Positions 59,529-63,578 of a stretch of 64,000 nt of DNA are shown piece after piece (the stretch's first letter is position 1; each line of letters starts with the position of its first letter). Made by a program: the position numbers and the translations under genes. The DNA is from Acidimicrobiales bacterium. GTDB taxonomy: Bacteria; Actinomycetota; Acidimicrobiia; Acidimicrobiales; MedAcidi-G1. The stretch lies in assembly GCA_014237715.1 (NCBI GenBank), contig JAAZZG010000003.1, positions 195,291-259,290 of the forward strand. Reading direction: 5' to 3'. Under the pieces are notes generated by a model. The model searched no databases and had not been told where the DNA came from. It was given only the letters and a program-made list of their open reading frames with translations.

Positions 59529-60674
59529 TCAGCGGTCACCTGGGGTGAGGTAGAACCACATCGGCTGTGGTGCGTCTTGGTCTTGCATTGCTTGGCGGGC
59601 GGCCATCATCACCTTGCCGGTTTCGGTCTGGTCGAGGAACCAGCGCGTGCTGGCCCAGGCGGCAGGGGCGTGGTCGACCATCGCGAGGGCAGCGGTCTCG
59701 TAGTAGCTGCGAATGTCGTGGCCGACCCGCATCGGCAAGCCCGGGATGCCGGCTTCGGCCCATGGGGTGCCTTCGGAGATACGGATGAAGGCCTCGATGG
59801 CAGCGGGGATCTCGTCGGCCGCAACGACGCGGCCCGCTCCGAATCGGCCGTCGCTCATCTCGACGCCGCGGTGGTAGGCGGCGAGCAGGCCGCGAGCCTC
59901 GTCGATGGCGGGATGGGCGTCGGGGTCGTGACGCGGGGGGAGCGGGCAGGCGAGCATTTCGTCGCCACCGTCGGGGATCGATTCATCGAATTCGGCGAGG
60001 ACGGGTTCGGTGGCGTTCAGCAGGGCGAACGCTACGTCCAGCACGCGGTGCTGGAACTCCGGATCGCCTGGCTTGCCGAGCGGTCGCCCGAGTGGGAAGT
60101 CACACCACAGACCGCGGGGCGGGGCCGAGCTCTCGATCTGCTTGCGGATCGATCCGAGGGCGACGGTGGCGATCCCCTCAGCCTCGAAGACGTGGGCGAG
60201 CGTACTCACGGTACGCGTGCACAGCGGTCAAACCGGGGTAAGCAGAACGACGTCGACGCCCTGATCGCGCAGGAACTTGGCGCCAGCCGGCCCGGAGTCC
60301 ATGCGGATGGCCGACAGGTCGAACTGGTTGCCGGCGTAGGCGAGATGCTGATCGGCCACGCGGCCGATCACGCCGCGCTCGGCCAATTCGTCGAGTCGGT
60401 CCACCGGTAACACGGTGTTCATGTCGTAGGCGAATCCCGACCCGTCGAAGTTGGGACTCCAGTGGCCGGTCACGTAGTCGCGTCGGCTGTCGTCGAGGAC
60501 GCGGTAACCCGTATCCATGACCTCGAAGTCGTCCTGGTCTGGATGATGCAGTGACGCGGTCGTCACGATCGCGACCGTCGCATCAGCGAGCGGTGGTGGT
60601 GTGGTGAACGCCGTCGTCTCGAAGCTCTCACCGGGGAGCGCTTCGGTCAGCGCCTTGATGTCGGAGTCAGCCAT
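59529..60674 (-). CDS. GrdB/PrdB-like selenoprotein with in-frame UGA (Sec149)
   Basis: Two open frames in the same phase are separated by one UGA (60230-60228). Read through, they give 381 residues of the glycine/sarcosine/betaine/D-proline reductase selenoprotein B family: VAIVTTASLHH, FAYDMNTVLPVDRLDELAERGVIG, GVDVVLLTPV, then Sec149-Pro-Leu-Cys152, TLAHVFEAEGIATVAL and WCDFPLGRPLGKPGD. The UGA falls where the family has its redox Cys or Sec, in U-x-x-C. A SECIS-like hairpin follows at once. The ATG at 60674 has a TAGTTT -10 box seven bases upstream. The reaction is unknown; a reductase-like selenol role is inferred. A nonsense-mutated Cys homologue is the alternative, but less likely. Confidence 0.8.
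60191..60223 (-). promoter_or_regulatory. Bacterial SECIS-like hairpin
   Basis: Minus strand, just after the UGA. A perfect 6-bp upper stem, GCGUAC/GUACGC (60216-60200), has the 5-base apical loop CGUGA, with G as its second base. The loop starts 18 bases after the UGA. A lower stem UGUG/CACG closes an internal loop. This fits the known bacterial pattern: a small loop with G in its first two bases, 16-37 bases from UGA. Confidence 0.7.
60228..60230 (-). other. In-frame UGA, proposed selenocysteine codon
   Basis: Codon 149 of the GrdB-like gene. The flanking residues are LLTPV before and PLC after. Confidence 0.78.
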
Positions 60675-61340: not shown

Positions 61341-61502
61341 GGAAACCTCGACGAAATCTCTTTCGAGCCCCGTTGGTAGGCCTTCTGGCTGTCCTGTTGG
61401 AACGGGTTGACGAAGAGACTTTCGACTGACTTGGAGTCGTGCCTGGACGGCAGCGAGATCAGCGAACATGAACGCAATACATCTCTACTAGGAGTTATCG
61501 CA

Positions 61503-62468
61503 ATGAGCATCCCAGTGTCACGCCGACTCGACTTCACCGAAATCCCGGTGACCGACCTGTCTGACCTCGTTGCTGGCAAGGATGACCCGGCCACGATCGA
61601 TGCTCTTGGCGCGGCCTGCCGAGATGTCGGCTTCGTGTATATCCAGAAGCACGGAGTCGCCCAAGATTTGATCGACGACCTCTTAGCTGCTTCTGACGAG
61701 TTCTTCGCTCGCCCGATGGACGAAAAGATGCAAAGCCTCCTCAGCGACCGGCTACGCGGGTATCTGCCACTGCGTTACCGGTCCTATGAAGGTGAAGAGA
61801 CCGCGGCAACCAGCAATCAAGAGGGCTATTGGATGGGCGTAGAGCGTCCACTTAACCCACAGAACAAGTTGGATGGCCCCAACGTTTGGCCAGAAGAAGG
61901 CGAGGTGCTGCGCAGCGCTATGGAGGCCTACTACGAAGCGGCCGACGCACTCTCTGGAGTGCTGCAGCGCGCCTTTTCTCTGGCGTTAGGCCAGAAGTCG
62001 GACTTTCTTCGAAACCTGTTCAACCCCGTGCAATCGCTGCTGAAGGTCAACCACTATCCACCTCAAGCGAACCCAACGACCGTCAGCAATATCGGTGTCG
62101 TGCCTCATTCAGACGAAGGCGGCTTCACCATTCTCTGGCAGGACGACAACGGCGGGCTGGAGATCGAAAGCAAGAGTGGCGAATGGGTTGAGGCGCCGCC
62201 CATCCCTGGAACGTTCGTGGTCAATCTGGGCGACGCGATGCAGATCTGGACTAATGGGGAGTTCTCCTCGACGCCGCATCGAGTCATCAATCGATCGGGT
62301 GTCGACCGCTATTCGATTCCCTTCTTCGCCTATGCCCGGTCGGACGCGCCGATTGCACCGTTGATGAACGGCGCAATCGATGACCCAGATGCCGAACTGA
62401 GCGAGGCCTATCAACGAAGGCACTGGCATCGCATTTTCCCAATTGCCGACATCCTTGAGCCGGCATAG
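61503..62468 (+). CDS. 2-oxoglutarate/Fe(II)-dependent oxygenase, isopenicillin-N-synthase-like
   Basis: A 321-residue enzyme. The iron ligands are His202 and Asp204 in PHSDEGGFTILWQD and His259 in STPHRVINRS; Arg269 in DRYSIPFF binds the 2-oxoglutarate carboxylate. The N-terminal RDVGFVYIQKHGV is typical of this group. The ATG at 61503 has AGGAG eight bases upstream; the frame open from 61407 is not supported. It forms an operon with the methyltransferase that starts nine bases after the stop. The substrate is unknown; hydroxylation or ring modification of a small acid is possible. Confidence 0.88.
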   Translation: MSIPVSRRLDFTEIPVTDLSDLVAGKDDPATIDALGAACRDVGFVYIQKHGVAQDLIDDLLAASDEFFARPMDEKMQSLLSDRLRGYLPLRYRSYEGEETAATSNQEGYWMGVERPLNPQNKLDGPNVWPEEGEVLRSAMEAYYEAADALSGVLQRAFSLALGQKSDFLRNLFNPVQSLLKVNHYPPQANPTTVSNIGVVPHSDEGGFTILWQDDNGGLEIESKSGEWVEAPPIPGTFVVNLGDAMQIWTNGEFSSTPHRVINRSGVDRYSIPFFAYARSDAPIAPLMNGAIDDPDAELSEAYQRRHWHRIFPIADILEPA

Positions 62469-62477
62469 GAGGCGGCG

Positions 62478-63578
62478 ATGACCGGAGACGACAGGACACA
62501 CGTCGCCATGACAAGTGGCGGGGCCTATTCGCTGGCGACCCTGGGAGCAAAGGACGTCATCGACGGCGCCTGGCCGCTGGTCCGAGAGGCGATCGAACGC
62601 AGTCCGGACCGGCCAGGCCACGCGTTTACCTTCTCCGACATGGGAACCGCCGATGGCGGCACCTCATTCGACATGATCGGCGATGCGATTGCTGCGATTC
62701 GCGGGCGTTTCCCTGAGCGTGATGTGCAGATCGTCTACACCGATCAGCCGCACAACGACTACAACGCCATCTTCCGTATGGTCCATGGCCTAACCGGACA
62801 ACCGAGTTACCTCGATCGCTTTGAGAACGTCCAAGTCCTGGCCTCGGCAACATCTTTTTATGACCCAATTCTGCCGACGGGAACGCTCGACCTCGGGTTC
62901 TCGGCCACTGCGATGCACTGGCTGTCGCGCAAACCGTGTGACATTCCAGATCACGTTCAGGCGGTCGGTGCAACGGGCGCGAGTATGGCCGAGTTTCAGC
63001 GCCAAGCAGCGAAGGATTGGGAAGTGATCCTTCTTCGACGTGCCACGGAACTGGCACCGGGCGGTCGCCTCGTGCTGGTGAATTTCGGAGTCGACGACGA
63101 AGGCCGCTATCTCGGCAACACAGGCGGGGTCAACATGTTCGACACGTTCGACGCCATCTGGCGCAGTTTCGTGAAAGACAACACCATTACCGAAGCCGAA
63201 TACCGTGCGATGACCTTGCCTCAGTACTACAAGAGCGTCGAGGAGTTCCGGGCACCACTCGACGACAGCGACAGCCCGGTCAGTCAAGCCGGGCTCAGCG
63301 TCGAGCATTGCGAGACCCGGGTTGTGCCATGCCCCTTCGCTAGCGACTTCCAGCAACATGGCGACACGGCACGGTTCGCAGCCGACTATGTTCCGACGCT
63401 TCGCTCCTGGAGCGCAGCCACGTTCCGCTCCGGACTCAGCACCGACCGCCCCGATGATGAGCGTGACAGAATCATCGACGCCTTTTACGGCGCCTACGAA
63501 ACCATGGTGCGTGAAGCCCCTGAAGGCCACGCAATGGACTACGTCCACGTGTACCTCACAATCGCGAAGAGCCAGTGA
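62478..63578 (+). CDS. SABATH-family carboxyl methyltransferase
   Basis: A 366-residue SAM-dependent enzyme of the family best known from plant salicylate, jasmonate and gibberellin methyltransferases. Diagnostic stretches are DMGTADGGTS (54-63), YTDQPHNDYNAIFR (87-100), SFYDPILPTGTLDLGFS (126-142) and AMHWLS (145-150). It would methylate the carboxyl group of a small acid. Bacterial members are sparse. AGGAGG five bases before the ATG is a strong ribosome site. Coupling to the oxygenase suggests both act on one substrate. Confidence 0.87.
   Translation: MTGDDRTHVAMTSGGAYSLATLGAKDVIDGAWPLVREAIERSPDRPGHAFTFSDMGTADGGTSFDMIGDAIAAIRGRFPERDVQIVYTDQPHNDYNAIFRMVHGLTGQPSYLDRFENVQVLASATSFYDPILPTGTLDLGFSATAMHWLSRKPCDIPDHVQAVGATGASMAEFQRQAAKDWEVILLRRATELAPGGRLVLVNFGVDDEGRYLGNTGGVNMFDTFDAIWRSFVKDNTITEAEYRAMTLPQYYKSVEEFRAPLDDSDSPVSQAGLSVEHCETRVVPCPFASDFQQHGDTARFAADYVPTLRSWSAATFRSGLSTDRPDDERDRIIDAFYGAYETMVREAPEGHAMDYVHVYLTIAKSQ

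Follow-up and report, generated by a model that had tools for sequence, protein, structure and literature searches.

An in-frame UGA very probably encodes the active-site selenocysteine of a PrdB-like protein with its own C-terminal part in an Acidimicrobiales bacterium

GrdB and PrdB are selenocysteine (Sec) enzymes of anaerobic clostridia, and the name PrdB refers to a Stickland enzyme from anaerobic organisms. Among the selenoproteins listed in the accessible part of a paper that also gives a model of the bacterial SECIS element, bSECIS (PMC13188914), are D-proline reductase (TIGR04483) and GrdB (PF07355). Selenoproteins with a UxxC motif and the name 'proline reductase PrdB' have been described from marine surveys, with 42 sequences from the Sargasso Sea in 2005 (PMC1088965) and 235 from GOS in 2008, where they ranked as the seventh commonest (PMC2398784). 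These proteins were named by homology, and the accessible parts of both papers say nothing of a host lineage, a C-terminal extension or an absence of PrdA. Since marine 'PrdB' selenoproteins have been known since 2005, the kind itself is not new. Judged by their description, the survey sequences may well include members of the long or the short form considered below. No description of the long acidimicrobial form was found in a literature search of open-licence PMC papers, and this long, apparently partner-free actinobacterial form looks new among the PrdB-like selenoproteins.

The gene presented here lies on the minus strand of the window, that is, the whole stretch of 64,000 nucleotides that was analysed, and occupies positions 59529..60674 (381 codons and a UGA stop at 59531-59529). 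Between the ATG at 60674, which matches homologues starting at the same residue of the alignment (MADSDIKA...), and position 59532 the frame is interrupted only once, by the UGA of codon 149 at 60230-60228. The original observation of a selenoprotein gene with an in-frame UGA is confirmed: the two same-phase minus-strand frames that the initial annotation joined are separated by this codon alone and give 381 residues together, and an ordinary ORF listing does split the gene into two pieces, as had been expected of standard gene calling. Despite its apparent stop, the gene very probably gives a single protein whose active site holds selenocysteine. Profile matches and the structural model delimit a PrdB-like selenol/thiol redox domain at residues 1-218 (60021..60674, minus strand), followed by a mostly helical C-terminal part at residues 219-381 (59532..60020, minus strand).

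The first of these parts is homologous to clostridial PrdB (hhalign probability 99.8). The proposed Sec149 (60228..60230, in the context TPV-U-PLC) and its UxxC partner Cys152 (60219..60221) align with the Sec and the Cys of PrdB, whose gene has a TGA at the codon corresponding to Sec149. Both positions of the UxxC/CxxC motif are invariant in six proteins of the PrdB/GrdB superfamily, PrdB included, and Cys152 is also invariant in an alignment of 34 long-form sequences, which agrees with the earlier placement of the UGA at the redox position (U-P-L-C). The long form differs from clostridial PrdB in its 163 additional C-terminal residues and in its score against the PrdB equivalog model TIGR04483, which reaches 106.5 bits over residues 27-217, far under the 300-bit cut-off; all 34 sequences match this family at E ≤ 0.001. 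It differs also in its setting, a genome with haem-copper oxidase subunit I genes in which a PrdA-family protein was not found. With GrdB, GrdF and GrdH (PF07355, TIGR01918) the protein shares the same redox domain, which matches the GrdB profiles from about position 263 onward (about 263-377). These profiles have about 260 positions before that domain, whereas the long form has instead an unrelated C-terminal part. The scores were 21.4 bits for PF07355 (GRDB; gathering threshold 22) and 33.7 bits for TIGR01918 (cut-off 65.45). The initial annotation had called the joined frame a full-length member of the reductase selenoprotein B family; the likeness to PrdB holds for residues 1-218, but a full-length GrdB it is not, and membership of the PF07355 type is not borne out, as the curated cut-offs of PF07355, TIGR04483 and TIGR01918 are all missed. 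A further relative is encoded on a Roseomonas plasmid (L139, 'glycine/sarcosine/betaine reductase selenoprotein B family protein'); it has CPVC at the UxxC position, and differs in having Cys for Sec, a length of 302 aa by coordinates and no counterpart to most of the C-terminal part. The gene of this Cys homologue lies end to end with an adenylyltransferase SelO gene (L139:9869-12254).

The downstream half matched no Pfam family at E ≤ 1, and 11 of its 163 positions are invariant among the 34 sequences. Its profile matched neither PrdA nor the PF09338 protein of a same-genus genome (G010), and the idea that it is a piece of one of these was rejected. In the AlphaFold model (AF2; pLDDT 93.2, pTM 0.92), Sec149 follows strand 142-146 and precedes helix 152-165, and the chain beyond residue 219 forms seven helices and one strand. 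Searches of the PDB by sequence and of solved structures by fold (Foldseek) both returned no matches at E ≤ 0.001.

We consider it likely that the locus makes a single selenoprotein, with a SECIS-guided Sec149 and a PrdB-like domain joined to a helical C-terminal part, which works as a stand-alone selenol reductase. According to this proposal, SelB and Sec-tRNA, guided by the hairpin after the UGA, would insert selenocysteine at codon 149, and Sec149-x-x-Cys152 at the start of a helix would form the selenol/thiol redox centre of residues 1-218. The PrdB-like domain would be joined to a helical C-terminal part of its own (219-381), which may close or build the substrate pocket, and unlike clostridial PrdB the protein would probably be active without a pyruvoyl partner of the PrdA type, a stand-alone mode that we infer. 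The selenol could attack a small substrate, either splitting a C-N, C-S or C-halogen bond reductively or reducing an oxidised thiol or a similar group, and Cys152 would then release the product, leaving a selenenylsulfide to be reduced by a thioredoxin-type protein. This chemistry is a guess by likeness to the GrdB/PrdB family, and a selenol-dependent reductase is our best guess of function.

The same selenoprotein could instead serve mainly in thiol or peroxide homeostasis, as a thioredoxin-like disulfide or peroxide reductase. The position of the UxxC motif at a helix start and the haem-copper oxidase of the genome are consistent with such a role, and so is one lineage (G037), in which the genes immediately upstream of the long form encode a membrane protein of the DsbD/CcdA type and a protein with the thioredoxin/AhpC-TSA fold (L090:2-1555); this pair is a possible electron donor. 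However, the domain is homologous to PrdB/GrdB, and the protein matched none of the thioredoxin families in the Pfam, NCBIfam profile and hhalign searches. Moreover, the polar residues H71, S73, D77, D84, H110 and Q117 lie away from the motif and do not vary among the 34 aligned sequences, which suggests a pocket for a specific substrate. We regard a main role in thiol or peroxide homeostasis as unlikely, though it is the strongest of the alternatives.

The gene neighbourhood was rejected as a guide to function. Among 80 of the 152 neighbouring ORFs, taken from 31 of the 33 loci with a crude ORF caller, so that some are surely spurious, no Pfam family occurs in more than five, the commonest being Bac_luciferase and MFS_1 (5/80 each). 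Neighbours vary between lineages and are conserved only within sub-clades, where a functional link is possible; the clusters c3, c9, c11 and c12 are common to nine loci. In the window itself, positions 61407-63578 encode a 2OG-Fe(II) oxygenase and then a SAM-dependent carboxyl methyltransferase of PF03492.

Another reading takes the protein as a genuine subunit of a D-proline (or glycine/sarcosine/betaine) reductase with a pyruvoyl partner of the PrdA/GrdE type, and is favoured by the PrdB homology of residues 1-218 and by the UxxC motif. The PrdA/GrdE family PF09338, which gave three matches on the prd plasmid used as positive control (NZ_CP154617.1), had no match in the own genome (G000), which is 92.57% complete, so that a partner may have been missed. 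It was likewise not found in five of the six other long-form genomes, which makes six of the seven tested, own included. The search for GrdA (PF04723) also gave no match, with no control sequence matching either. The remaining genome, G010, is of the same genus and does contain a PF09338 protein (318.6 bits), in a separate cluster (L146:3325-13337, contig C45) together with a component C beta subunit (578 bits against a cut-off of 450) and a GrdF-like selenoprotein whose gene has an in-frame TGA. These genes mark it as a reductase cluster of the Grd type within an actinobacterial genome, and it favours the partnered reading. It adjoins genes for a GCV_T-type protein, an Amidohydro_2 protein and a Rieske oxygenase. 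Its PF09338 protein matches, below cut-off, the NCBIfam model of the fluoroacetate reductase FarE, a name which hints at non-amine leaving groups among the enzymes of this group. Against a partnered reductase stand the location of the long form of G010 on a different contig (C10), the missing PF09338 matches elsewhere, the distance from the PrdB equivalog cut-off and the additional C-terminal part. A PrdA-type partnership is quite improbable. The stand-alone selenol reductase is the best reading, since PF09338 was not found in six of the seven genomes, the neighbours vary and thioredoxin-type genes lie beside the long form at L090.

Whether the UGA is translated cannot be read from the window by itself. 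It contains 10 in-frame TGAs, that of the present gene included, flanked by open stretches of at least 140 and at least 200 codons, and 147 of the 1642 TGA codons in its six frames are followed by a model-like hairpin of ≤ -7.5 kcal/mol. Neither the open frame nor the hairpin is therefore rare, such statistics were rejected as proof, and the case depends on relatives. A search for the joined protein gave matches in 43 of the 61 near genomes, the own one among them, and in 76 of 396 genomes from the phylum. A collection of named genomes gave 23 loci, the titles being mostly those of Acidimicrobiales or other Actinomycetota MAGs, with other phyla named for three. Together with the haem-copper oxidase genes, this accords with the aerobic-looking actinobacterial relative that had been envisaged. 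To judge by their titles, some of these relatives are oceanic (ETNP, ALOHA, ActinoDeep) and others are not. Copies that are 88% identical occur on contigs titled Acidobacteria and Planctomycetaceae (L050, L051), for which misplaced MAG contigs or wrong labels seem likely.

Of the 53 loci L018-L070, which comprise the own locus and some contigs that were fetched twice, 51 have the UGA at the Sec site, and two are contig ends that stop at residue 144 and do not reach it. Among 60 long-form loci, in which some sequences were also fetched twice, 57 have UGA, two are cut-off ends and one (L117) has Cys. Removal of identical proteins left 48 full-length long forms (47 with Sec), and the 34 that share less than 90% identity, own included, comprise 33 with UGA and one with Cys. 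The UGA thus aligns with Cys or Sec in homologues, clostridial PrdB among them, which is the outcome that the initial annotation had proposed to look for. Of five genomes taken as Cys forms, three show Cys directly (L117, L127 and L133), and for the other two, G071 and G135, it was deduced because their frames have no stop. A tree built from 74 domain sequences, with a midpoint root used for drawing, unites the long forms in a single branch (support 100/100) of 35 rows. These are 33 Sec forms, the one Cys form and L047, a long form that breaks off at residue 210 and had been labelled short by the script. At the level of sequence, the long form is thus a distinct clade, with a C-terminal part of its own.

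Several genomes contain additional copies. G215 has a divergent second long form (G215:C157:71567-72664) with one TGA and 36% identity over residues 23-372, besides a closer long-form copy, and at L068:3058-4944 a full long form is followed in tandem by a partial one, with the UGA motif in both. The own genome encodes a short PrdB-like paralogue (G000:C11:20462-21052, L091) with its own in-frame TGA and a hairpin at the same place with a different stem sequence. In several relatives the short paralogue lies near genes for a MerR-type regulator and for MenC_N, TPP enzyme and alpha/beta hydrolase proteins, the last three of which fit menaquinone synthesis.

The SECIS hairpin (GCGUAC-CGUGA-GUACGC, 60200..60216, minus strand) has a 6-bp stem (60216-60211 with 60205-60200) and a CGUGA loop (60210-60206) that begins 17 nt after the UGA. 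In the accessible text of the published source, the bSECIS model is given as a stem of 4-16 bp, a loop of 3-9 nt, a distance of 16-37 nt from the UGA, a G in the first two loop positions and an MFE ≤ -7.5 (PMC13188914). The bare six-pair hairpin (-6.8 kcal/mol) would alone fail the energy rule, and the element agrees with the model through a larger 48-nt fold with lower pairs (-12.8). Across the 33 Sec sequences, codons 152-159, within which the hairpin is located, have the lowest synonymous difference of all 373 eight-codon windows (0.128, against a mean of 0.540 per codon column). Covariation was assessed on 101 loci, of which 94 have UGA followed by xxC, giving 75 distinct stretches of 42 nt; the Cys forms L117, L127, L133 and L139, the cut-off L046 and L070 and the UxxD form L093 were excluded. 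Of the 450 cells for the six pairs (columns 15-20/26-31), 96.7% are paired, whereas shuffling gives 72.4%. Five of the six covary, with changes on both sides, and the sixth never varies; double changes fill 108 stem cells, against 34.9 in shuffled and at most 9 in slid controls. The stem sequences differ between long and short forms, and the columns are identical. The bacterial-type SECIS proposed after the UGA is therefore upheld by model fit and covariation alike.

The own genome also has the machinery that Sec insertion was expected to need, namely selA, selB, selD and tRNA-Sec, with best matches above cut-offs. Contig C22 carries selA and selB side by side and the tRNA-Sec (ARAGORN, anticodon tca). 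The selD gene, on C11 (80011-80934, L016), contains one in-frame TGA, and is therefore probably a selenoprotein gene too. selA was found in all 26 Sec long-form genomes given to the search, a subset of the long-form genomes, and in three of nine same-order genomes without a joined-protein match. As it is present in all five genomes taken as Cys forms, loss of the Sec machinery was rejected as the cause of these forms.

Within the C-terminal part, the differences at third codon positions (0.60) are about double those at first (0.35) and second positions (0.30), which indicates that the half downstream of the UGA is under selection as protein in the joined frame. The view that the UGA is an ordinary stop, due to mutation or sequencing error, and that the halves are a pseudogene or two small proteins, can appeal to the comparable open flanks of the ten TGAs in the window, but is ruled out by the retention of UGA in 33 of 34 sequences across 42-88% pairwise protein identity, the Cys at the aligned site in L117, the covarying hairpin and this codon-position bias. 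Decoding of the UGA as Sec is, from these comparisons, strongly supported, and the interpretation given in the initial annotation is supported overall.

Summarizing, PrdB-like selenoproteins are among the commonest in sea water, yet they bear the name of an enzyme of anaerobes. One PrdB-like group is now placed in Acidimicrobiales-type, apparently aerobic genomes, and a natural Cys relative (L117) and SECIS elements backed by covariation are supplied with it. As a tentative and wider possibility, this clade could be an aerobic, largely aquatic actinobacterial PrdB type that became independent of the pyruvoyl partner by gaining a helical C-terminal domain outside the known families, and that performs a new selenol-dependent reductive cleavage in oxic settings, among them sea water. 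Should the long form be among the marine survey sequences, as is likely, the function of an abundant marine selenoprotein would become testable.
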